Source: a virus
Length of the DNA stretch: 40,173 nt
Virus record (IMG/VR): IMGVR_UViG_3300045454_000125
Coordinates: 1-40,173 of that record
Strand: one strand, 5' to 3'
Within the stretch, counting starts at the first letter, position 1, and every line of letters begins with the position of its first letter. The notes beneath the pieces are model-generated. The model was not told where the DNA came from and searched no databases. It was given only the letters and a program-made list of their open reading frames with translations. Of the stretch, positions 14,104 to 40,173 are shown piece after piece. A program made the position numbers and the translations under genes.

Positions 14104-15345
14104 TTAGGCCGTGCCGGAGAGGCGCACAGCGAGGCGAGGATCGATTGCCTTGACCCCATAGAGGACATCGAGACGCCACTTGCTGATGTCGTTTGCGCCG
14201 TCGTAGTACGGGACCAGGCGAACGTTGATGCCCTTGTAGGACTGGCGGGACACGTTGACCGCGCCCTGCGGGGCTTCCATCGGAACCGTGACCAGAGCGA
14301 AAGCGTTCTTGTGGAACACCATGTTCTGACGATAGCCAGTGCCGCCCGTGCCGAGGACTGTGATTGCTGCGTTGTCTGCCGGAGCAGCCGAGCATGTCTT
14401 CTGCGCGCCCGAGGTGATGATCGGGGGCGAGATCGTCAGGGTTGCTGGGCCAGTCGTTGCGCCGGAGTCGGCATCTGCAAGCACTGTGAACTGACGCAGG
14501 AACGGCAGGGTTGCCTTGGTCACCGGGTCGACGGCGAAGACGCCGGCAATGGTGAACACGTCGCCCGCTTTGACGATGCCGGTGGTGGAGTTGGTCCAGC
14601 CATCGGTGATGAGGGACTGCGAATAGGTGTCCTTCGATGCCGCCCAGGTGACGTTCTGCGACGCGCCGTTAACGAGCGGCGTACCGGTTGCCACGCCGAC
14701 GGTGTGCGTCGGAGTGACCTGAGACATGTAGGTATCGACGCCGCCAATCATGCCGAGCGAGGCGTTGCGATATGCGCCCTTGGCTACGTCCTGCATGTAA
14801 AGAGCAGTCTGCGAGCCAAGCAGGCCCCAGTGGTCAGCCGGCGACAGGATGGCCTTGCGCTCGTCTACCGGCACAGACAGTTCGTCCAAGCGTTCCGGCC
14901 CCTTGGCGAAGTCGGCATAGGAATTGATGGTCTGGCCCGGAGTGCCTGCCCAGTTCGGTACGCGGTAGTACTCCGACAGGATGTCGCGGTCGATCTGCGT
15001 TGCGAGCTGGATCATCGCCGGCTTGATGACGCGGTCGGAAAGCTCGTTCATGTCGAGCGACAGTTCGGTGGAGGTGAACTGGAAATCGATGCCCTTCTGC
15101 TTGTTGACCACGATGGTGGTCGAACCTTCTTCGACGTCCTGAATGGAGGCAGTTGCACCATCTCGGACGGTGAAGTCGGTCGGCTTGCGGATCGTGATCG
15201 TGTTGCCGATCTTGTAGCCGTTCGGGTTCTTGCTGTACTCGTCAGCGTGACCGCGATGGACGAGCTTTGCCATGACGAGGTTATTCTCAAGAATGAGATT
15301 AGCCTCCTTGGCGATCATAGAGACTGTTTTGACTGAGTTTGCCAT
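14104..15345 (-). CDS. major capsid (coat) protein, P22 gp5 family
   Basis: A 413-aa coat protein. Recognised by MANSVKTVSMIAKEANLILE, then LVHRGHADEYSK, GNTITIRKP and QFTSTELSLDMNELSDRVI, blocks typical for P22-type coat proteins. Length is near that of P22 gp5 (430 aa). A middle insertion (about 205-330, Thr/Ala/Gly rich) may be the surface I-domain. It follows the scaffold gene by 12 bases, and a UUCG hairpin follows it. Confidence 0.9.
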   Translation of the reverse strand: MANSVKTVSMIAKEANLILENNLVMAKLVHRGHADEYSKNPNGYKIGNTITIRKPTDFTVRDGATASIQDVEEGSTTIVVNKQKGIDFQFTSTELSLDMNELSDRVIKPAMIQLATQIDRDILSEYYRVPNWAGTPGQTINSYADFAKGPERLDELSVPVDERKAILSPADHWGLLGSQTALYMQDVAKGAYRNASLGMIGGVDTYMSQVTPTHTVGVATGTPLVNGASQNVTWAASKDTYSQSLITDGWTNSTTGIVKAGDVFTIAGVFAVDPVTKATLPFLRQFTVLADADSGATTGPATLTISPPIITSGAQKTCSAAPADNAAITVLGTGGTGYRQNMVFHKNAFALVTVPMEAPQGAVNVSRQSYKGINVRLVPYYDGANDISKWRLDVLYGVKAIDPRLAVRLSGTA

Positions 15346-16352: not shown

Positions 16353-18380
16353 CTAGGGATTGAGTTGTTCGGCGTCCATGAGAGCGGGGGCCGCTGGGAT
16401 GCTTCCGCCTTGGCGGATAAGCTCAACTTCCCGGTCGATGGCGATCTGTCGCAGTTTGGCCTGATAATCGAGGTCCTGCTTGCGCAGCGTGGCTTTGTAG
16501 TTGTTCTCGATCTTGAGGATTTCCGCGCTCACATCCGTCTTGAGCTGCTGGTTTTCCTCTTCCAACTGCTTGAGACGTTCAGCGCCCTGCTGGATCTGCT
16601 CTTGAACCTGCGGCGGGATGCTTGCACCGTCCTGAAGCGCCGGGTTGATCTTCTTCAGGCGCTCGGCAATCTCATCAGCGCCGGGCCAATCAAGGCTTTT
16701 TGCCAAGAGATCCCCAATGACCGGAGCAGCAGCCGGGTAGGCACGGACAAACTCTGTCATCTGGACCGCTGTTTCTTCGCGCTGTGTCGTGTAGCTCGGG
16801 CCAGTCGTCACCGTCAGGTCGTACTTGCCGGCTGTCAGATCGTGCAGAGCCATGATGGCCTGGCCCATCTCGTCAACTTCAGGCTTTCCGTCGGCACCCG
16901 TGACAGGCTGCGGCTGTTGAGCGTTCACCTTGACGTTCGCCGGTGTCCCATCTTCACCCAGAACGCGGATAATGCGCTCACCGCTGTAGACCTTCGGAAT
17001 GAGGTCAATCAGGATGCGGCCCGTGTGACGAATGGCGCGAGAGATGTTGTCGATGAAGTGGAAGGTCGCAGTATCGCCTTCCTTCTGACGCGCCAGGATG
17101 GCCCGACCACTCGTTTCGTTCGACCGGGCCCCTAGCGAAGCGTCATAAATGCCGATGATGGCCTTCATGTCGTCCGCTGCGTTCAAGGCTTCCTGAAGCG
17201 CACCACCAGCAACGCCACTGTCGAGCGGCTGACGCTGCGGAGGCTGCTTGCCAGACTTGTACTCAAGATACGAGTGGTTCTCGCTGTTCGCGGTGTTCCA
17301 CTTGTCGTCAACGTCGAACGCGCCCTCCTCGCCAATGAACGGCACACGAGGGGCCAGCGCTACAAGCTCGGTCGAGGTCGAGCGCCAATAGTTGACCATG
17401 CGCTGCGCGTCTTTGGCGTTGTGGATCAGGCCACGGAAATGTCGCTTGCCCTCAACAATGATCTCATCGCCGTAGACAGGCACAATTGGGATATAGCACC
17501 CAGGCCAGTCGCGGACCTCCAGCACATCAGCGCCGGTCATGAAGGTCTGCGTTACCTTGTGCGTCGTTCCCTTGCGCTTCTTGACGACAGTGAGAGTGCC
17601 GGCCTGGATGCCAAGCTGCACGTCAGGGTCTTCGAACTGCTCTTCCGAATACGTGTGGCCATTCGACAGCAGGTAGAACGTGGTTCCGACTTCCTCGCGA
17701 TGCCACCATTCGGCAATCATCACGCCGTCGTCGTTGATCCAGTCGCCGTAAGTCTGCCCGCTGTCCCAATCGACCGTGACAGCATCGCCGTCTACGTTCT
17801 TCGCGTTCTTGTATTTGCGCTTGAACTTGTCTTTCGGCATCCGATCAACAACGAAAGCGTCGTCCCAATCGGAACTGTCTGCCGCCGTGCTGTTCGGGTC
17901 GCCGTAAACCGAGAATTGGTTAGAGATACGTTCAATGGTGAGGTCCATGTCGAACGCATCAGCATAGGCGTAGTCAAGACCAATGCGCCAATAGCCGAAA
18001 CCACCAACGATTGCCGCCTCGCCTGCCGTGTCGTAAGCGACATCAGCGTTGGAGGTGTATTCAATGTTGCGGATCAGGCCGTTGATGATCTCTGCCGTCT
18101 TCGGGTCTGCCTTGTCATCGACAGGGTGAACCTTGATCGATGGCTTATTCTGGCGAGCGTCGTTGACAACCTGGCGGATAAACGCCGGCATCTTGTTGAG
18201 CGTGAGAACAGGACGCTGGGCCAGTTCGCGCTTCTTCTTTACCTCGGTTGGCCACTGTTCACCCAAGCGAGCGAACTTGATGTCCTCAAGCGCAATCTGG
18301 CGGTTATCCCGCTCATGGTCGTTGGCGCGCTCAAAGGTCTTTTTGCCAGTGGCGAGCAGGTCGTTATCTTTATCGTCCAT
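16353..18380 (-). CDS. portal protein, P22 gp1-like
   Basis: A 675-aa portal protein. The N-terminal block (KFARLGEQWPTEVKKKRE then RPVLTLNKMPAFIRQVVND) and AGEAAIVGGFGYWRIGLDY are typical of P22-type portals. The C-terminal 60 residues include a helical stretch (EQIQQGAERLKQLEEENQQL), perhaps a short barrel-like extension. It forms the dodecameric DNA channel, binds the terminase and later the adaptor. One-base overlap with the upstream 58-aa gene. Confidence 0.92.
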   Translation of the reverse strand: MDDKDNDLLATGKKTFERANDHERDNRQIALEDIKFARLGEQWPTEVKKKRELAQRPVLTLNKMPAFIRQVVNDARQNKPSIKVHPVDDKADPKTAEIINGLIRNIEYTSNADVAYDTAGEAAIVGGFGYWRIGLDYAYADAFDMDLTIERISNQFSVYGDPNSTAADSSDWDDAFVVDRMPKDKFKRKYKNAKNVDGDAVTVDWDSGQTYGDWINDDGVMIAEWWHREEVGTTFYLLSNGHTYSEEQFEDPDVQLGIQAGTLTVVKKRKGTTHKVTQTFMTGADVLEVRDWPGCYIPIVPVYGDEIIVEGKRHFRGLIHNAKDAQRMVNYWRSTSTELVALAPRVPFIGEEGAFDVDDKWNTANSENHSYLEYKSGKQPPQRQPLDSGVAGGALQEALNAADDMKAIIGIYDASLGARSNETSGRAILARQKEGDTATFHFIDNISRAIRHTGRILIDLIPKVYSGERIIRVLGEDGTPANVKVNAQQPQPVTGADGKPEVDEMGQAIMALHDLTAGKYDLTVTTGPSYTTQREETAVQMTEFVRAYPAAAPVIGDLLAKSLDWPGADEIAERLKKINPALQDGASIPPQVQEQIQQGAERLKQLEEENQQLKTDVSAEILKIENNYKATLRKQDLDYQAKLRQIAIDREVELIRQGGSIPAAPALMDAEQLNP

Positions 18381-18556
18381 CAGCGGCTAATCCAATCAAT
18401 GGCGTAAAGGTCGCCCTTCTCGGTGATGACCTCAGCGAACTTGTCGCCGCCGCGCTTTGCCCATTCGGCCTTCAAGGTTTTGCGTGCTGCTTCAGCGGTC
18501 GCCGCGTCGAACGGCTTCTGGATGTCAACGCCTAGGTGCAATTTGCTCTGTGTCAT
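18380..18556 (-). CDS. 58-aa protein between terminase and portal
   Basis: A small basic protein (SKLHLGVDIQKPF then helices with KTLKAEWAKRGGDKF). It overlaps by one base the terminase stop and the portal start (TGATG), so translation is coupled on both sides. The start at 18556 is preferred over the in-frame ATG at 18568, which lies inside the terminase gene. Function not recognised; the position suggests a packaging accessory. Confidence 0.7.
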   Translation of the reverse strand: MTQSKLHLGVDIQKPFDAATAEAARKTLKAEWAKRGGDKFAEVITEKGDLYAIDWISR

Positions 18557-19878
18557 CAGCCCATCCATCCACCAGCACCAGCGAACTGGTTGCCGTTAGC
18601 CTTCTTCTTCGCTCTTGGTTCTTCGTAGACGACACACATCAGGCCAAACGCATCGGCGCTGTGAGATGCCCAATCATGATCAGGACCAAGGCCAATCCCG
18701 CGAGCTTCGTCTTTCTTCTCGTGATACCAGCCGAGAGCATCCCGGCCCGCTTCCGTTGTCTCTGCGTTGAACCACATGGACGGGAAGAGACGCCTCGCCT
18801 CTTCGATACGAGCAGAAGCAGCACCTTTGCCCTGATTGGGGACAACCGTGACCGAATAGCCTGCCTGTCTCAGCGCGCTTTCGTATGAGACGTCGAACAC
18901 CTTGTCTTGAGTGCTGCCGTCGTGAGGAAGCCAGAACTGCGCCCGGTCTGGCGTATAGCCTTTCGACCGGCACCAGTTGAGATGCGAAGCCAGCGGCTGG
19001 CCTTGTGCCTCGTAATGATCAAGGACGCGGATCTCTTTCCCGATGAACTGAGCAACCCAAATGACGAAGCTGTCAGCCTTTGCGCCAGTGCCGCCAATGT
19101 CCACGAACAGGCGAAGCGTCATCAGCGGGTCAGCGGAGACACGACCGATGCGGCCCTCTGCCTTGGCTGCCGTGAGATGGCTTGCGAAGTATGCGCCGCT
19201 CGCTACCGTCACGTATCCACCTTCCCAGACATGCTCGTAATCGTCTGGCGTCATGCGGAGACAGTCTAGACGTTCCTGCTCAAGCTCTGGGCCGAACCAA
19301 GGATTGTCTTTCCAGTTGGCATTAACGACAATAGCGCCCGTTGGCTTCTCTGGGCCTCTGAGCATCACGTCAACCGGGTCCGTCTTGCGGCGAGCGTTCC
19401 AGCTCCACCACATCTGAGCGCCAGTCGAGCGCATTGTCGGGCGAAGCATGCGAATGGAAGTCATCGAAGCAGACTGCGCTTCTTCCCACCATGCACGCTT
19501 GAAGCCTTCCAGCGATTTAATGCTTTCGGCTGTGTAGTCCTGCATGCCCTTGAAGATGATCAAGCCATCCCGAGGCGTTGTGATGCAGTCCCGAAAGACC
19601 TTGAAGCCGTCAGCCTCGGTTAGCTCGAAATCTCTGAGCTTTGCCTCAATGAGCGCTTTAGACGATTGGGCAAGATCCTTCTGCACTTCACGGATGCAGA
19701 CTGCCCTTAGACCTTCTCCGCTTGTCCCTGGTTCTGCGAGGCTGTCCTCAAGCAGAAGGCCGGCGAAGAAATGAGACTTACCTGAACCACGACCTCCCCA
19801 AGCGCCTTTGTCTCTTGCTGGCTCTAGAAGCGGGAGGAATACCTCAGCCGTTGGTATCTGGAGTGTTCGACCTGACAA
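18556..19878 (-). CDS. terL: terminase large subunit
   Basis: A 440-aa packaging motor. Walker A is GGRGSGKS at 28-35; the Walker B plus catalytic Glu is FKRAWWEEAQS around 126-136. The nuclease domain shows LFVDIGGTGAKADSF with Asp 260, and a C-terminal DHDWASHSADAF. It cuts concatemers and drives DNA into the procapsid. It overlaps the small subunit gene by 35 bases and the following gene by one. The length fits P22-type headful terminases. Confidence 0.92.
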   Translation of the reverse strand: MSGRTLQIPTAEVFLPLLEPARDKGAWGGRGSGKSHFFAGLLLEDSLAEPGTSGEGLRAVCIREVQKDLAQSSKALIEAKLRDFELTEADGFKVFRDCITTPRDGLIIFKGMQDYTAESIKSLEGFKRAWWEEAQSASMTSIRMLRPTMRSTGAQMWWSWNARRKTDPVDVMLRGPEKPTGAIVVNANWKDNPWFGPELEQERLDCLRMTPDDYEHVWEGGYVTVASGAYFASHLTAAKAEGRIGRVSADPLMTLRLFVDIGGTGAKADSFVIWVAQFIGKEIRVLDHYEAQGQPLASHLNWCRSKGYTPDRAQFWLPHDGSTQDKVFDVSYESALRQAGYSVTVVPNQGKGAASARIEEARRLFPSMWFNAETTEAGRDALGWYHEKKDEARGIGLGPDHDWASHSADAFGLMCVVYEEPRAKKKANGNQFAGAGGWMG

Positions 19879-20125: not shown

Positions 20126-20378
20126 TAAATTCACCTAAGTCTATGGAATTGTTTTTGGCCGCACCAACGAGCCGCGCATTGATACTGGCGATGCTGGGAA
20201 CTCTAGACCGCCTATCTCTTTCACGCTGGACGAGATATCGGATGTACTCGCGCTTTGGTGTTACCTTGCCTATGCGTGAGTGCCACTTCGGGGCCATGAA
20301 ATAGTCGTAGCTGTGCATACGGGTTAGCTCAGACCAGCCGAGCAGATGGCCGATCACGTCGCTTGGCTTTACTGGCAT
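20055..20378 (-). CDS. hypothetical protein overlapping terS (107 aa)
   Basis: Basic, helical protein with a WSELTRMHSYDYFMAPKWHS region and RLVGAAKNNSIDLGEF near the C-terminus. Its last 71 bases overlap the start of terS in another frame, a long overlap for this compact genome. GAGG stands five bases before the ATG at 20378. Unrecognised; first-in-operon position beside terminase suggests a packaging or late regulatory role. Confidence 0.65.
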   Translation of the reverse strand: MPVKPSDVIGHLLGWSELTRMHSYDYFMAPKWHSRIGKVTPKREYIRYLVQRERDRRSRVPSIASINARLVGAAKNNSIDLGEFNGWASSKGKILRQHAQYRHQRGG

Positions 20379-20385
20379 CACAACC

Positions 20386-20565
20386 TCAATTCAGCGTAGG
20401 CAGATCAATAACCATCACGCCGTCTGCGTCCATTTCCATCTCTATGCCGTTCTGTTCTGTACGGTCTTCAATGATGGTGGAGAGCATGACGATTAAAGCC
20501 GGGGCACCGTGTTCTGCTTCGAAGTCGAGACAGTAGGCAAGCAGGTCTTCCGGCTGGATGGGCAT
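20386..20565 (-). CDS. 59-aa acidic protein, first gene of late operon
   Basis: Starts MPIQPEDLLAYCLDFEAEHG and ends in ADGVMVIDLPTLN; strongly acidic, no membrane segment. Unrecognised. A GGAATAG precedes the ATG. It ends seven bases before the next gene's ATG, whose GAGG sits at its stop, so the two form the head of the leftward late operon. Confidence 0.7.
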   Translation of the reverse strand: MPIQPEDLLAYCLDFEAEHGAPALIVMLSTIIEDRTEQNGIEMEMDADGVMVIDLPTLN

Positions 20566-20600
20566 CTATTCCACGTCCTGCGTTATCGCTGCACAAGAAA

Positions 20601-20629
20601 CATGTATGCCAGCGCGCTTTTTTGTCCAA
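20601..20629 (-). promoter_or_regulatory. weak candidate leftward late promoter
   Basis: On the minus strand, TTGGAC and TACATG are 17 bases apart, which would start RNA about 30 bases before the 59-aa gene. Both hexamers match the consensus only at about half of the positions. A second possibility is that late genes are reached mostly by read-through from the leftward early operon. Confidence 0.25.
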
Positions 20630-20646
20630 ATATCTGTGATTTTCCG

Positions 20647-20674
20647 TTGACAATGTACAAGCATCTTGTATACT
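20647..20674 (+). promoter_or_regulatory. strong promoter with palindromic operator in the spacer
   Basis: TTGACA at 20647-20652 and TATACT at 20669-20674 with a 16-base spacer, ahead of the + strand island at 20703. The spacer holds the perfect palindrome TACAAG-CAT-CTTGTA at 20656-20670. A dimeric repressor bound there would block RNA polymerase. The HTH protein at 21119 is one candidate for the regulator; this is inference. Confidence 0.75.
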
Positions 20675-20702
20675 TGGGCCATCAACCAGACAGGAGGCCA
20701 CA

Positions 20703-20891
20703 ATGACCGAGAGCATGAAGAAGTACCTTGAAGCCGCAACTGCACCGAGAGGCACCGCAATGCGCAAGTTCGAAGACCACCGAGCAGCCGAGAAGAATGG
20801 ATGGATCAAACTCTGGGGCTACCCTCAGAATTCAACCACTCCCCGTTTTGTCATCACAGAAGAAGGTCGGGCCGCTCTTGCAGCGGCCTGA
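20703..20891 (+). CDS. small hypothetical protein (62 aa)
   Basis: Basic, helical protein (ESMKKYLEAATAPRGTAMRK then FVITEEGRAALAA). The C-terminal part looks like the end of a winged-helix type domain (RFVITEEGRAAL). Good AGGAGG ribosome site seven bases upstream and a near-consensus promoter make it a real gene. It leads a three-gene island that runs against the flanking leftward operons. Confidence 0.7.
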   Translation: MTESMKKYLEAATAPRGTAMRKFEDHRAAEKNGWIKLWGYPQNSTTPRFVITEEGRAALAAA

Positions 20892-20906
20892 AAGGGGCTA
20901 GTGCAG

Positions 20907-21110
20907 ATGAAAATACTCAAACCGTGGGAGCCACCACCACATATGAAATATGTTATCAAATGCCATAATTGCCAAACTGCTGCCATTGCAGAGCGCAAAG
21001 AGGGTCGGCTTGTCGAGGACCAACGGGACGGTGACGCTATCGTCTTCCCCTGCCCTGTGTGCGGTAAAGATTGCTGGGTGCGTTACGATCAGCACCGTGG
21101 CGGATGGTGA
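20907..21110 (+). CDS. small zinc-ribbon protein (67 aa)
   Basis: Two Cys pairs, CHNC and CPVC, about 35 residues apart, followed by another Cys; this is a zinc-ribbon layout. Such small ribbons in phages often bind nucleic acid or RNA polymerase, but no partner can be named. AAGGGG nine bases before the ATG at 20907 favours this start over GTG at 20901. Confidence 0.7.
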   Translation: MKILKPWEPPPHMKYVIKCHNCQTAAIAERKEGRLVEDQRDGDAIVFPCPVCGKDCWVRYDQHRGGW

Positions 21111-21118
21111 GGGGCAAA

Positions 21119-21316
21119 ATGAACGCTGAACAATTCACCCGATGGCTTGCTGACATGAAGTCGGCGGGCCTTGCTCGTTCGGATGCCAAATGCGCCGAGC
21201 TGCTTGGCCTGTCCAAGAACTCAATCGTTGATATGAAGCGCCGAGGGGCTGATAAGCGAACCGCCCTTGCCTGCCGTGCGCTGCTTCATCGTCTTGAGCC
21301 GTATGGCTCTCCATAA
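21119..21316 (+). CDS. small helix-turn-helix DNA-binding protein (65 aa)
   Basis: The region ARSDAKCAELLGLSKNSIVDMKRRGADK has the form of a Cro/CI-like helix-turn-helix with recognition helix around SKNSIVDMKRR. GAGGGGC lies just upstream of the ATG at 21119. Third gene of the island; could bind the TACAAG-N3-CTTGTA palindrome before the first gene as an autorepressor. That link is inference. Confidence 0.75.
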   Translation: MNAEQFTRWLADMKSAGLARSDAKCAELLGLSKNSIVDMKRRGADKRTALACRALLHRLEPYGSP

Positions 21317-21680
21317 ACGTATATACCCGCCATGCAGCGCAGAGGGCGGGGAGGATGAGGGTCGGGAAGGAGGAAAGCGCGTAAACCCCGCCAGTCACAC
21401 CCGTCAGGGCCGCATCAGACGCTACATGTGCGCTTACGACTGGTCGATTGCCTTCCCGATTACGTTGCCCAATCGGGCAAATGGCTTTGGAAGAGAAGCT
21501 TGTGGAAACGCCTTTAGCCACTTGCGGATCCGGTTCACCCTAGGGCGGTGGCTGCCTGTCGGGCTATCTCTTCCAAACTCTAGAAAATTGGCGGTCTTTC
21601 CCCTGCCGCTGGATCATGTCCAGCAAGCCAGGGCCGGCGAATAACGCTAACAGAACGCCCCAAATCAGTTGCGATCTATA
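21317..21680. other. convergent intergenic region with hairpins
   Basis: 364 bases between the + strand island and the 3' end of the NusG-like gene. No frame here has both a ribosome site and a convincing protein; the longest + frame (from 21303) has an implausible composition. Two mutually exclusive stems occur: CCCGATT (21455-21461) with AATCGGG (21471-21477), and TTGCCC-AATC-GGGCAA at 21465-21480. There is no T-run. It may hold terminators that leftward RNA must pass to reach the late genes. Confidence 0.5.
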
Positions 21681-22274
21681 CTACGCGACCTTGCTCACCA
21701 TAGCAAGAGGCAACTCAGCCGTTACCATCCCATTTAAAGTCTCGACCAGCGCCCGGATTGTATCGCGGCCTGTCGCTTCCTTCACAACGGCGTTTCTACC
21801 ACCGAGAAGCATGTGAGCCTCGTTGATCTTGACCGTGGAACCTGCCGGATAAAGCACCCTAGCTTTGCGCTGTGGAATATGTTTCTCCCTCATTTCCTCT
21901 TCCAACCTGCGCTTTGCTTTCTGGGCCTCGTAGCGTTGGAAAATTTCACTCTCGGCAATCCTGATGTTTTCGATGTCCGTGTTGTGGAGCCTGAGAGGCG
22001 TTCCAGCGACACCGAGGACACCAGCAACGTAGTCAACGCGGTGCAGCTCATACCAGTCTTCCACGTCGCAAACGAAGGCATAGCCCGGGATTAGCGGGAA
22101 CGTCTTGTCGAGCGGCTTCTTGGTGCGGTGGTGAATGATCTCCTTGCGGTCAAGCGGCATGTAATGCTCGATGCCGGCGCTACCCAACGCAAACTCAATA
22201 TTCGTGTATCGTGGGTCATGCTTGGACGGTCGTGCTGCCATGGGCTTTAGGCGGATGGCGTACCATGATGTCAT
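21681..22274 (-). CDS. NusG-like transcription antitermination factor
   Basis: A 197-aa NusG/RfaH-type protein. The N-terminal domain starts SWYAIRLKPMAARPSKHD and contains FPLIPGYAFVCDVEDWYELH and VAGVLGVAGTPLRL, the pattern of an NGN domain that binds RNA polymerase. A charged helical linker (QRYEAQKAKRRLEEEMREK) leads to a KOW-like C-terminal domain (AGSTVKINEAHMLLGGRNAV ... LVETLNGMVTAELP). The start at 22274 overlaps the DnaA-like gene as ATGA. As last gene of the leftward early operon, directly before the late operon, it is well placed to let polymerase read through into late genes. Confidence 0.8.
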   Translation of the reverse strand: MTSWYAIRLKPMAARPSKHDPRYTNIEFALGSAGIEHYMPLDRKEIIHHRTKKPLDKTFPLIPGYAFVCDVEDWYELHRVDYVAGVLGVAGTPLRLHNTDIENIRIAESEIFQRYEAQKAKRRLEEEMREKHIPQRKARVLYPAGSTVKINEAHMLLGGRNAVVKEATGRDTIRALVETLNGMVTAELPLAMVSKVA

Positions 22275-22936
22275 TCCGTGTCCCTCGCGTTGAAATACCA
22301 ATTGAGCGCGCCTTCTCCACGCAGCCGCTTGATCTTAGCGTGTGCGTGCAGTGCTGTTGTGTGATCTCTTCCGCCCAGGTATTGCCCGATCTTGTGCCAT
22401 GAGGCTTCCGGGCGCTGCTCCTTGATCTCGTAAGCGACGAGCTGGCGCGGCAGAACAAGCGGGCGTGTCCGCGATTTGCTCTTGAGCATGTGGATGTTCA
22501 CGTTCTCGAAGCGTTGCAGGACTTCCGAGGCGATGTCGTCGTATGACTTGACGTTTGTCTCTTCCAGTTCCCGGCCTTCCTCCATGGCCAGCATGTGCCG
22601 GCGATAGGTGACAACGTGGTCATTGAAGTAAATCAGGCCGGACATCCAAAGCGGCTTTGCCTCAAGCGCAAATGTCACCTTTGGCTTCGCACCCTTTTCT
22701 CTGGTCTTGGCGATCCCGTAATAGCGGCGGACATGGTCATCAAAGCGGATGTCCTGAAGGCACCACAACGGGCGCTTGCCTCTGTTGCGTGGGTCAATCA
22801 ACATAGGCCCTTCAACCCTCTGTACGGCCTTGTAAATCGGTTTTACCGGCACTGCGTAAATCTTCCGGCGCAATGCGGCATAGCTTGCCAGCAACTCGGC
22901 ACCACTCGTGAACTCTTTGTGACCAACCATACCCAT
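22271..22936 (-). CDS. DnaA domain IV-like DNA-binding protein
   Basis: A 221-aa protein. The C-terminal segment from about 160 (LVLPRQLVAYEIKEQRPEAS then WHKIGQYLGGRDHTTALHAH) matches DnaA domain IV, including the signature GGRDHTTALHA at 188-198, which reads DnaA boxes. No AAA+ ATPase part exists; residues 1-155 are unrecognised. It may be the phage origin-binding protein, or compete with host DnaA. AAGGA is eight bases before the ATG. It is ATGA-coupled to the NusG-like gene. Confidence 0.8.
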   Translation of the reverse strand: MGMVGHKEFTSGAELLASYAALRRKIYAVPVKPIYKAVQRVEGPMLIDPRNRGKRPLWCLQDIRFDDHVRRYYGIAKTREKGAKPKVTFALEAKPLWMSGLIYFNDHVVTYRRHMLAMEEGRELEETNVKSYDDIASEVLQRFENVNIHMLKSKSRTRPLVLPRQLVAYEIKEQRPEASWHKIGQYLGGRDHTTALHAHAKIKRLRGEGALNWYFNARDTE

Positions 22937-28474: not shown

Positions 28475-29175
28475 ACGGCTGTTTCCAATTGTTCGAGGAA
28501 AAAACGGACCATCGGAGCAAGACGCTTCACGTCTTCACGCATCGGGTCGGACATTTCAGAGATGAGAAAAGAGGGTTCCTTGGACAGGATGCCGTCACGC
28601 TCGAAGTCTTTGAGGCGTCCCCAAAGCCACAGCGCGGACTGGTCCATGACCTTCTGCGGCTCTGCCTTTGGCTTCGATATAACCTCGCGGTGAACCTTCG
28701 CCTTCGTGGGCTCTTCGCCTCTGGATATGATCTCCTCGACTACCCGTTCAGTGATGCCCGGACTTGCGACTTCGGCGTCACGGATCTGACGTGCTTCGTG
28801 GATCTCTTTGTGGGTAAGGCCGATGTCTTTGACACTTGGCGCTTCCAAAGCGGAAGTGCTACGGCCTTGGTTCGGAGCCCGAACCTCCCCCCTGTCCTGC
28901 GCAGCATCATACTCCTCAGCCAACCTCATCTTGGCGCGAGCCTCGATAATCAACGCATCTGCTTGAGCGCGGTAGACTTCGGCCAGAACCGTGTCGTGGG
29001 CCTGCTTTGCCTTAGCAAGACGGCCTGCGCTCTTTGCGGCATCGTAGGCAACCCGAGCCATGTCACGGGCTTCAAGCACCTCAGCGCTGGATTTTGCAGA
29101 CACGAGCGCGGCTGCAGCCCGATCGAGAAGAGCCGGAAGCGTGGCGCCAGTATCAATCGTCGCAAGCATATTCAT
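28471..29175 (-). CDS. helical protein with HTH-like segment (234 aa)
   Basis: Residues 30-95 are a long Ala-rich helical region; around 115-140 the segment SVKDIGLTHKEIHEARQIRD looks like a helix-turn-helix. This architecture is familiar from phages and plasmids of Hyphomicrobiales, where it is usually left as hypothetical or loosely linked to ParB-like proteins. Role unknown: DNA binding is likely. The ATG at 29175 overlaps the Cro-like stop as ATGA. Confidence 0.7.
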   Translation of the reverse strand: MNMLATIDTGATLPALLDRAAAALVSAKSSAEVLEARDMARVAYDAAKSAGRLAKAKQAHDTVLAEVYRAQADALIIEARAKMRLAEEYDAAQDRGEVRAPNQGRSTSALEAPSVKDIGLTHKEIHEARQIRDAEVASPGITERVVEEIISRGEEPTKAKVHREVISKPKAEPQKVMDQSALWLWGRLKDFERDGILSKEPSFLISEMSDPMREDVKRLAPMVRFFLEQLETAV

Positions 29176-29375
29176 TCCGCTGCCTCCGAAGTGTGTTCAG
29201 AAACGAGCCTATCGATCAGCTTCATCACTGGACCTGACGGGTTTGCCTTGCCGTTGATCCACTTGGACACCGTGCCCTGGTCAACACCGAGTTCATCGGC
29301 AAAGCGTGGCTGGTTCATGCCGAGAGTTTCCATCGCGGCTTTGACGATCTGGGAGTGTGTGAGTTCGTTCTGCAT
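29172..29375 (-). CDS. Cro-like helix-turn-helix regulator (67 aa)
   Basis: HTH_3-type protein: HSQIVKAAMETLGMNQPRFA then DELGVDQGTVSKWINGKANP, with the recognition helix in GTVSKWINGK. It is divergent from the CI-like gene and first in the leftward early operon, the position of cro. The start at 29375 is preferred over ATG at 29390 because the promoter's -10 (29382-29387) lies between them; RNA would begin at or very near the ATG, so the message may be leaderless. Confidence 0.85.
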   Translation of the reverse strand: MQNELTHSQIVKAAMETLGMNQPRFADELGVDQGTVSKWINGKANPSGPVMKLIDRLVSEHTSEAAE

Positions 29376-29381
29376 GACGCC

Positions 29382-29410
29382 AAGATGCATAACGCATTCT
29401 TTGTTGTCAA
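29382..29410 (-). promoter_or_regulatory. leftward early promoter (PL-like)
   Basis: On the minus strand, TTGACA (29410-29405), 17 bases, then CATCTT (29387-29382). The -10 is weak, but the whole 29-base unit matches the rightward early promoter at 30967-30995 in 21 positions, including the operator word AGAATGC-NN-N-ATGCAT inside the spacer. Transcription would start close to 29375. Confidence 0.6.
29384..29398. promoter_or_regulatory. operator O1: GATGC-N5-GCATT
   Basis: GATGCATAACGCATT, a palindrome with half-site ATGC and five-base centre. It covers the -10 end of the leftward promoter, so binding would shut off the Cro-like operon. Same word as at 29409, 30945 and 30979. Confidence 0.75.
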
Positions 29411-29423
29411 TGCCTATCGCATT
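29409..29423. promoter_or_regulatory. operator O2: AATGC-N5-GCATT
   Basis: AATGCCTATCGCATT, a perfect 5-5-5 palindrome with centre 25 bp from O1. It touches the -35 of the leftward promoter and lies upstream of cI, so it could both repress the leftward promoter and influence cI transcription. Confidence 0.75.
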
Positions 29424-29439
29424 TTTCTTTTCGCTAGAG

Positions 29440-29454
29440 AATGCATATGGCAGA
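29440..29454. promoter_or_regulatory. degenerate operator O3 over the cI start
   Basis: AATGCATATGGCAGA keeps the left half-site AATGC and GCA of the right one. It covers both possible cI start codons (29441 and 29447). A weak site here would give negative autoregulation at high repressor level, by analogy with lambda OR3. Confidence 0.45.
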
Positions 29455-30139
29455 TGACATCGAAATTGGCCGTCGCTTGAAGGCGGCGCGAGAAGCTTCG
29501 GGATACGGCACCGCAAAGGCGGCGGCTGAAGCCTTGGGCATCCCATATGCGACCTATGTCCAGCACGAGAACGGGCGGCGGGGCATAGTCCGCGAAGCCG
29601 ATCTCTATGCGCGGCGGTTCAAGATTTCGCTCGACTGGCTGATGCGCGGGAGAGGCGAAGCGCCGGGCCCAACGGATCGGCTTGTCGAAGTGGCCGCGCC
29701 GATTGGCGGGGTCAAGATCAAGGGCAAGGTGGCGGCGAATACCTGGATGAGCGTTGACGACATGGATTTTGGCTATGACGATGAGGAGTTTGTTCCAGTC
29801 GTCGGAGGCTATCCAGTCGATATGCAGTTTGCCCTCAGAGTTGACGGCAACTGCCTGAATAAGGTCGCAGCACACGGCGATCTGCTTGTCTGCCTAGACA
29901 TCATCAAAGCACTGGTAGACATCAAGCCTGACGATCTCGTGATTGTGGAGCGCAGCCGTTTCGATGGGCAGATGGTCGAAAGAACCGCCAAGAGAGTTCG
30001 CCGGTCGGTATCTGGCTTTGAGCTATGGCCAGAAAGCACCGATCCGGCGCATCAAGATCCAATCATCCTTGAAGAGAAGCGCGAAGCGGAAGAGGTTCGA
30101 GTGATCGGCAAAGTGCTGTGGATCATGAGGAAACCATGA
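29447..30139 (+). CDS. CI-like phage repressor with altered S24 protease site
   Basis: A 230-aa repressor. Residues about 5-62 are an HTH domain (LKAAREASGYGTAKAAAEAL then YATYVQHENGRR). The C-terminal half has the LexA/CI (S24) layout. Lambda's VEGNSM, with the catalytic Ser, is here VDGNCL, so Cys136 replaces Ser. The Lys is kept (Lys182 in TAKRVRR). The cleavage site, Ala-Gly in lambda (VQAG), is here VAAN (95-98). Dimer contacts may persist without efficient self-cleavage. Starts at 29441 or 29447; ribosome site poor. ATGA-coupled to the next gene. Confidence 0.85.
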   Translation: MADDIEIGRRLKAAREASGYGTAKAAAEALGIPYATYVQHENGRRGIVREADLYARRFKISLDWLMRGRGEAPGPTDRLVEVAAPIGGVKIKGKVAANTWMSVDDMDFGYDDEEFVPVVGGYPVDMQFALRVDGNCLNKVAAHGDLLVCLDIIKALVDIKPDDLVIVERSRFDGQMVERTAKRVRRSVSGFELWPESTDPAHQDPIILEEKREAEEVRVIGKVLWIMRKP

Positions 30140-38978: not shown

Positions 38979-39262
38979 CGCTCCCGACTGTTTTTACCCC
39001 TGAGCAGGTGGCCGCTCACTACGGATGGTCGCCGCGTAAAGTGCGCGAGATTGCGCGAAACATTGGAGCGTGTTCTGTTATCGGCGGCAAGATGGCCCTC
39101 ACAGAAAATCACGTCAATCAGATCCTGGAGGCTAACGTATGGCGCTCAAGCTCTCCCTCCGTGGTGACTACTGGCAGATCACGGGCACCCTCGAAGGGGT
39201 CAGACACCGCGAAAGCACTGGCTTTGCTAAACGAGATAAAGCAGCAGCAGAGCGCTTCCTAG
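38975..39262 (+). CDS. excisionase-like HTH protein (95 aa)
   Basis: Residues 5-52 form a winged-helix/MerR-like excisionase-type HTH: TVFTPEQVAAHYGWSPRKVR then IGGKMALTENHVNQILEA. Directly before the integrase, as expected for a directionality factor that bends att DNA. The last 124 bases lie inside the integrase gene in another frame, so the C-terminal 40 residues (Ser-rich, basic) are dual-coded. Confidence 0.7.
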   Translation: MTLPTVFTPEQVAAHYGWSPRKVREIARNIGACSVIGGKMALTENHVNQILEANVWRSSSPSVVTTGRSRAPSKGSDTAKALALLNEIKQQQSAS

Positions 39263-40173
39263 CGGAGAGTATGCCGCGACTGCTACAGAAGTCGCTTGCA
39301 ATCAAGGCTGGGAAAGAAGCGCCGCGAGATCTGACATTCGCAAAGGCTGCCATGCTCTATATCAAAGCCGGGAAGCCGACACGGTTCGTTGCCGAGATGA
39401 TCACGCATTGGGGCGATACTCCGGTCAAGGAAATCACCAGCGGGAAGGTTCGGGCTGCGGCTCTTGAGCTATTCCCGAAGGCGACAGGCAGCACCAGAAA
39501 CAGGCACGTCATTGTCCCTACGCAGGCAATCATCAACCACGCCGCAGAGCTGGAGCTGGCCACGTTCCTCAAGGTCAAGCGCTACAAGGTCGAGACAACC
39601 ATCAAGACGCCGGCAACGTGGCAATGGGTGCAAGCCTTCATGGCCGTAGCAAATCCGAACCTGGGGGCCCTGTGCGCTTTTATGTTCATGACCGGAGCGC
39701 GGGTGTCCGAGGCCATAGACCTGCGCTGGGCTGACGTTGACCTAGACGCGGCGAAGGCCGTCATTCGGCAGACCAAGGTAGGCAAGGAGCGGATTGCACA
39801 CATGCCGCCTGAACTCGTCAAGGCCATTGATGCAATTCCAGGGGAAAGATTGCCGGAAGGTCGAGTGTTCAAATACTCGTCACGGCACACAGCAAACGTC
39901 CAGTGGCGCAAGTGGATTGCGAAAGCCGGTATCGAACCGCTCTCGTTCCATTCCTGCCGCCACGGGTTTGCGACGACGCTTCTGCATCGTGGTGTTGATC
40001 CGGTCACAGTGGCGAAGCTGGGCGGCTGGGCGGATGCGCAGTTGGTGTTTCGCACCTACGGCCACGCGATGAACGACCCGACCATTCCGGACCTTTTGAC
40101 ACAAGAACCTGGCACAAAGATCAGGCACAATCCAAAAACCAATGCACGATCAAGGATAAAGGTGATAAAGTAG
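39139..40173 (+). CDS. int: tyrosine-recombinase integrase
   Basis: A 344-aa integrase. N-terminal arm-type and core-binding part, then the catalytic domain with Arg188 (MTGARVSEAIDLRWADVD), a Lys near 213 (TKVGKERI), His271 and Arg274 (FHSCRHGFATTLLHRG), Trp297 (LGGWADAQL) and nucleophile Tyr307 (FRTYGHA). It inserts and, with the HTH protein, excises the phage. GGAGG seven bases before the ATG. Last gene of the rightward operon; the window ends at its TAG, so the att site is outside or unseen. Confidence 0.93.
   Translation: MALKLSLRGDYWQITGTLEGVRHRESTGFAKRDKAAAERFLAESMPRLLQKSLAIKAGKEAPRDLTFAKAAMLYIKAGKPTRFVAEMITHWGDTPVKEITSGKVRAAALELFPKATGSTRNRHVIVPTQAIINHAAELELATFLKVKRYKVETTIKTPATWQWVQAFMAVANPNLGALCAFMFMTGARVSEAIDLRWADVDLDAAKAVIRQTKVGKERIAHMPPELVKAIDAIPGERLPEGRVFKYSSRHTANVQWRKWIAKAGIEPLSFHSCRHGFATTLLHRGVDPVTVAKLGGWADAQLVFRTYGHAMNDPTIPDLLTQEPGTKIRHNPKTNARSRIKVIK

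Follow-up and report, generated by a model that had tools for sequence, protein, structure and literature searches.

The stretch of DNA analysed here (the window) is a 40,173-bp viral record of a temperate phage, which encodes an integrase (39139-40173, + strand) and a CI-like repressor (29441-30139, +). Its early genes run leftward from a Cro-like first gene (29172-29546, − strand), whose start is uncertain and which as listed overlaps the repressor ORF, and include RusA, Dam, an O-like protein and a DnaA C-terminal domain protein (22271-22936, −). The DnaA-domain gene directly precedes a NusG-like gene (21681-22274, −; ATG at 22274, TAG at 21683-21681), after which come the leftward genes for the terminase large subunit (TerL; 18556-19878, −), the portal protein (16353-18380, −) and the major head protein (14104-15345, −). 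This context agrees with the first-pass annotation, which took the NusG-like gene for the last leftward early gene, standing in place of lambda Q: it lies at the end of the early operon and before the late genes, as expected of lambda Q-type late antitermination.

The 197-aa product had been described as an NGN plus KOW protein, and ORF, Pfam, AlphaFold2 and Foldseek all agree with this description. It matches Pfam NusG at E=9e-8, exceeding the curated cut-off, and two PHROG antiterminator families, with the ‘transcription antiterminator’ match at 1e-21. A check of the predicted structure against NusG/RfaH had been proposed, and the NGN/KOW fold was obtained: an AlphaFold2 model built from 21 family sequences (mean pLDDT 89.1) consists of an NGN domain, a 33-residue helix (98-130) and a KOW domain modelled as a beta barrel (147-195). 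The protein thus has both domains of the NusG/Spt5 family, the NGN domain by Pfam, AlphaFold2 and Foldseek and the KOW domain by its barrel. The best PDB matches of the model in Foldseek are E. coli NusG (7.7e-10) and ops-recruited RfaH (3.2e-8), and NusG C-terminal domains were aligned to its KOW part. A phmmer search of the PDB with the single window sequence had returned chance matches only and no NusG; the relationship was resolved by AlphaFold2 plus Foldseek. The protein belongs to the NusG family and is a NusG paralogue.

Related genes were found at 80 loci in a scan of viral contigs and at ten Rhizobiaceae loci in a genome scan, the nearest being that of Rhizobium ecuadorense (48% identity). 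Annotated phages with the gene are Sinorhizobium phiLM21, Rhizobium RHph_TM3_3_3 and Rhizobium RHph_N28_2; each of the three has it ahead of the terminase genes, separated from them by small genes and, in two cases, also by a tRNA. The phiLM21 literature places the gene at the end of the early region and calls it an antiterminator (PMC12429752); the gene is annotated there, with no leader or target described. TerL was detectable in 37 relatives, and in every one of them the NusG-like gene lies on the same strand as TerL and 1.4-4.0 kb upstream of it (median 2.3 kb); 12 of the 50 records searched had no TerL match and were not scored for distance.

The opposing three-gene island that had been noted in the gap behind the NusG-like gene is present. 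Its genes, all on the + strand, encode proteins of 62 aa (20703-20891), 67 aa (20907-21110; phrog_2834, function unknown) and 65 aa (21119-21316; HTH-like by eye, without a family match), and they follow a near-consensus promoter (TTGACA-16-TATACT, 20647-20674, +). This promoter holds a perfect palindrome, TACAAG-CAT-CTTGTA (20656-20670), which is likely an operator; the promoter block recurs in the related locus L017, and parts of the island recur in L017 and L021. The first-pass annotation had the late operon begin at 20565, a position that could not be upheld: the first leftward ORF of the late region (20386-20565, −; 59 aa) has no family match, and late transcription, which is inferred, likely starts at about 21669, right behind the NusG-like gene. 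On this inference, the gap would probably be transcribed as a long late leader, antisense to the island. A search of the gap for an ops-like pause site had also been suggested. None was found between 20380 and 21680, and matches across the whole window are at chance level; the loading signal is more likely a conserved leader behind the NusG-like gene than an ops-like site.

This leader follows a promoter-like site that lies partly within the gene itself. A −35-like hexamer, TTGCTA (21701-21706, −), is inside the 3’ end of the gene, at the 17-bp spacing common to most relatives from a −10-like hexamer, TAGTAT (21678-21683, −), which overlaps the TAG stop. Across the family, a sigma-70-like promoter precedes the leader by 6-9 bp, with the spacing mostly 17 bp; the window promoter is weaker than in most relatives. 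The leader itself (21587-21669, −; about 83 nt) starts with ACTGATTTG at the presumed transcription start. In order of transcription, it comprises arm 1, GGGGC (21657-21661, −); a small hairpin P2, GCG-TTATT-CGC (21637-21647, −); arm 2, GCCCT (21630-21634, −); hairpin P3, GCTGGA-CATGA-TCCAGC (21608-21624, −); and arm 3, AGACCGCC (21590-21597, −). Arm 1 can pair either with arm 2, the 3’ side of helix S1, or, in an overlapping register, with arm 3, the 3’ side of a competing helix S2. A TGATTTG box stands at the leader start in most members and occurs only once in the window, at the leader. It is missing from type D, a subgroup of 15, and is kept in five type B members, in which the fold is different.

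Several lines of sequence comparison suggest that the leader is a structured RNA. Helix S1 has 97.4% paired cells across 34 sequences, compared with 67% in shuffles, and no slid register comes close; its covariation score is 0.658 against 0.202 in shuffles (reached by 0/500), and the outcome is the same with the window’s clade alone. For hairpin P3, the own partner pairs better than swapped partners (0/20,000 permutations); P2 had no separate covariation test. The competing helix S2 is 79% paired against 71.6%, with a score of 0.333 against 0.222, and is moderately supported on these comparative grounds. Energy-swap tests of S1 (P about 0.10) and S2 (P about 0.055) were weak because most members share G-rich and C-rich arms, and pair counting is the better test for both. 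It should be noted that kinship among the sequences inflates the shuffle tests of pairing and covariation, that the largest arm change, from GGGC-type to GAGACG-type, may be a single event (the slid controls still favour S1), and that S2 and P3 were picked out by hand in the folds of subgroups before being tested, which means that choice and test drew on the same sequences. RNAalifold recovered no structure from the phiLM21-type alignment and only S1 from the whole set. The folding energy of the leader is not exceptional (z=-0.87 in the window), and z-scores were of no help. A pairing of the 5’ GTGA with UCAC of the P3 loop, common in relatives, is absent in the window and shows no covariation. 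No Rfam family matched the window, not even when E values up to 1 were allowed for 20300-22300, and in six relatives the only matches were tRNAs.

These data also bear on whether the conserved element might be read as DNA. Its sequence blocks are more strictly conserved than its stems, and RfaH reads a short hairpin in the non-template strand (PMC7819879), so that RfaH-like recruitment through the non-template DNA strand, by the conserved first part of the element (AGTGATTTG, TTCTG.AGCGG) and with the RNA fold secondary, has to be considered. We regard this as possible but doubtful, as the covariation of S1 and P3 indicates RNA and no ops match was found.

The leader is closely tied to the NusG-like gene. 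Its first nucleotide is no more than 30 nt from the stop codon in 63 of 81 sequences and no more than 650 nt away in all 81. In the window’s own clade, to which this comparison was confined, a shared match falls over the leader block in 61 of 136 gap pairs and elsewhere in the first 1.25 kb in 21 of 136; the corresponding block behind the gene in other subfamilies was recognised after its discovery in the window clade. A packaging site (cos/pac), or some other DNA element that merely happens to be near the terminase genes, would explain why the block is always upstream of terminase. This seems scarcely credible to us, given that the distance to terminase varies from 1.4 to 4.0 kb while the block stays with the NusG-like gene, and that promoter hexamers at fixed spacing and covarying stems would be unexpected in a packaging site.

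Sequence models find the leader in the window and in 60 of the 80 related viral contigs; in the remaining 20, of types B and D, it was recognised by position and alignment only. Two models, R1 and R2, together match all 61 type A and C sequences. R1, trained on the window clade including the window itself, gave 48 matches over 1.41 Mb, of which 42 are in the expected place behind a NusG-like gene, type C members outside the training set among them; one lies on the opposite strand and is a stray at chance level (E=5.4), and five (in L031, L032, L046, L077 and L078) represent an additional leader-like copy, 1-2 kb behind the gene. Such second copies, 0.6-1.8 kb behind the first, are seen in some phages (L031:7935-8013, L077:9029-9109, L104:205-280 (−)). 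R3, a model built without the window, matches the window leader at 21624-21667 (E=2.1e-5) as well as the leaders of R. ecuadorense and other genomes. A common set of 148 Rhizobium genomes was scanned with both R3 and the protein profile A7; together with the ten seed genomes it gave 11 strong leader matches, eight of them with a NusG-like gene directly upstream, and one distant NusG-like paralogue (in genome G198) was recognised only through its leader. Of 20 further NusG-like genes on chromosomes, 12 are accompanied by a leader match at E up to 0.1. The leader models are incomplete, since type B and several divergent copies go unmatched. Among 297 genomes of the order, seven match protein profile A6, and the single R1 match at E up to 1e-5 (E=1e-19) lies beside the R. 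ecuadorense NusG-like gene.

Three of the 11 strong matches, two of them near-identical, have no NusG-like gene nearby (L101:2450-2535 (−), L102:2666-2751 (−) and L103:2457-2526 (+), in Rhizobium chromosomes). These orphan leaders could be taken to mean that the leader is a put-like RNA acting alone on RNA polymerase, with the NusG paralogue doing something separate, such as shielding against host NusG-Rho silencing. HK022 putL provides a precedent, being about 70 nt long with two stem-loops just downstream of the promoter and needing no phage protein (PMC9378689), and S1 plus P3 resembles its layout. We nonetheless consider it unlikely: leader and gene are almost always directly adjacent, even for the distant paralogue that was found via its leader only, and the gene-less copies resemble, and probably are, prophage remnants.

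Terminators directly behind the leader are found in a subset of the family. In a simple scan, 33 of 70 loci have a terminator-like hairpin no further than about 330 nt from the leader start, compared with 22% of shuffles. In several separate lineages (the phiLM21 group, L008, L010, L023, L026, L042 and L085) a terminator occupies +94 to +126, immediately after the leader. For the window, the search found an intrinsic terminator neither behind the leader nor elsewhere in the gap. In L037, a second conserved block, TTGCCCGGTAGTGCTGCTGGAAAATGCAGATAGACCCCGACTGGGCAAG, follows the terminator about 140-190 nt past the leader start and looks structured; it is also present in L027, L045 and L062. A sense-strand tRNA gene (Met, Asn, Gln, Arg, Ser) is frequently present between leader and late genes (L011, L013, L014, L025, L026, L027, L029, L037, L041, L082). 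The conserved block was itself considered as a tRNA and rejected as such; tRNAs follow it in some loci, and there is none in the window. The terminators would also fit a negative factor, one that promotes pausing or termination and so restrains late transcription; housekeeping NusG promotes Rho-dependent termination (PMC7819879) and B. subtilis NusG promotes pausing and intrinsic termination (PMC8060035). That the paralogue acts in this way is, in our view, very unlikely, because its gene is placed last among the early genes, to be made just before late genes are needed, and because RfaH and LoaP, the specialised paralogues of NusG known to use leader signals, are both antiterminators (PMC7819879, PMC12691694).

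The closest parallels come from several different systems. LoaP of Bacillus velezensis is likewise a NusG paralogue with an RNA hairpin (dfn) in the 5’ leader of its target operon and an intrinsic terminator behind the hairpin, the latter found in only some relatives of the phage family (PMC12691694). However, LoaP is a host gene for antibiotic operons in a Gram-positive organism and has a UNCG-type hairpin, whereas the phage element would serve a late operon, is larger and two-stemmed, has no UNCG-type loop in the window (TTATT in P2, CATGA in P3) and is preceded by promoter hexamers inside the factor’s own gene. RfaH shares the NGN plus KOW fold and the role of a specialised paralogue for long operons (PMC7819879); the phage system differs in lacking an ops site, in having a target that adjoins its own gene and in a KOW domain modelled as a beta barrel, with the caveat that AlphaFold2 shows one state only and that the autoinhibited KOW of RfaH is alpha-helical and refolds. 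In lambda (PMC7171158), Q is the last early gene, with a promoter, loading site and terminator (pR’-qut-tR’) directly behind it driving the late genes; Q is no NusG relative and loads via a DNA element and a sigma-dependent pause, in contrast to the leader described here, which looks like structured RNA. The window protein, being NusG-like, does not belong to the Q family; of the late promoter and promoter-proximal terminator of the Q system, the former has a promoter-like counterpart family-wide and the latter one in several relatives, not in the window. HK022 put is likewise structured RNA with which a phage transcript begins, and its two adjacent stem-loops near the 5’ end have counterparts in S1/P2 and P3; put serves early genes, while here a NusG paralogue accompanies the element and late genes would be served (PMC9378689). 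GafZ, from a Caulobacter gene transfer agent, also brings about antitermination of a phage-like late cluster in an alphaproteobacterium, but GafZ binds the promoter, acts together with host NusA, NusG and NusE, and is not a NusG paralogue (PMC11150451). The absence of an ops site and of a Q protein makes identity with RfaH or Q less likely; it does not make a similar way of working less likely.

Phage antitermination is known through the N and Q proteins and the RNA-only put sites. We think it probable that the NusG paralogue and its cognate leader form another such system, a Q/qut- or LoaP/dfn-like module for processive antitermination of late genes in temperate Rhizobiaceae phages. The NusG paralogue would be made last from the early operon. 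Starting at the promoter inside the 3’ end of its gene, host RNA polymerase would transcribe the leader of about 85-115 nt, which, probably as nascent RNA, would load the paralogue onto the elongating polymerase in the place of host NusG. The modified polymerase would then resist pausing and termination, leading to late gene expression; in several relatives it would pass the intrinsic terminators directly behind the leader, and in the window it may overcome Rho-dependent termination in about 1 kb of DNA crossed by opposing genes.

The first-pass annotation had likewise suggested a processive late antiterminator. Computed support for the module consists of the NusG fold, the position (37/37), the promoter-like sequence, the partly covarying leader and its place specificity, and the terminators in a subset; the ops signal did not materialise. 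Transcription from the promoter, binding of the protein to the leader and antitermination itself remain inferences, as there are no transcription or binding data. Counting against the module are the lack of a terminator and the weaker promoter in the window, the ordinary folding energy, the moderate support for S2, the three gene-less leaders, and the type B and D leaders that the models do not match.

The KOW domain is altogether absent from most phage relatives. The phiLM21 gene (KJ743987; PMC12429752) has a homologous NGN domain, the same place and a leader of the same type family, and differs in an all-alpha C-terminal part instead of KOW. Such phiLM21-type relatives keep NGN and leader and have a C-terminal region that is predicted to be all-alpha, with no convincing PDB match (for example L041:9980-10657 (+) and further members). 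If both C-terminal types are functional, the determinants of leader recognition are probably NGN and the leader itself. A more tentative proposal, which we hold to be conceivable rather than likely, is that the leader acts as a co-transcriptional switch: pairing of arms 1 and 2 (S1) would show a conserved loop to the NusG paralogue, while in the absence of the protein pairing of arms 1 and 3 (S2) would lead to termination just behind, and recognition would rest on NGN plus RNA, as NGN and leader are kept where KOW has been replaced.

In the literature, searched mostly without subscription journals, we found no account in which a phage-encoded NusG paralogue acts on late genes, and none of this leader; the NusG reviews consulted, PMC7819879 among them, do not treat phage-encoded paralogues apart from rfaH-like genes noted in prophages. 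If the antitermination module is real, these viruses of root-nodule bacteria have another solution for late gene expression, a phage-owned paralogue of the universal transcription factor NusG with a dedicated, compact promoter and leader lying partly in the tail of its own gene. It would provide a small, portable protein-RNA pair for studying how NusG paralogues choose their targets, and the family offers a natural case of KOW loss. Furthermore, it would give a rule for locating late promoters in rhizobial prophages, and for genes that so far carry only the label ‘transcription antiterminator’ it would supply a target as well as a mechanism that can be tested.
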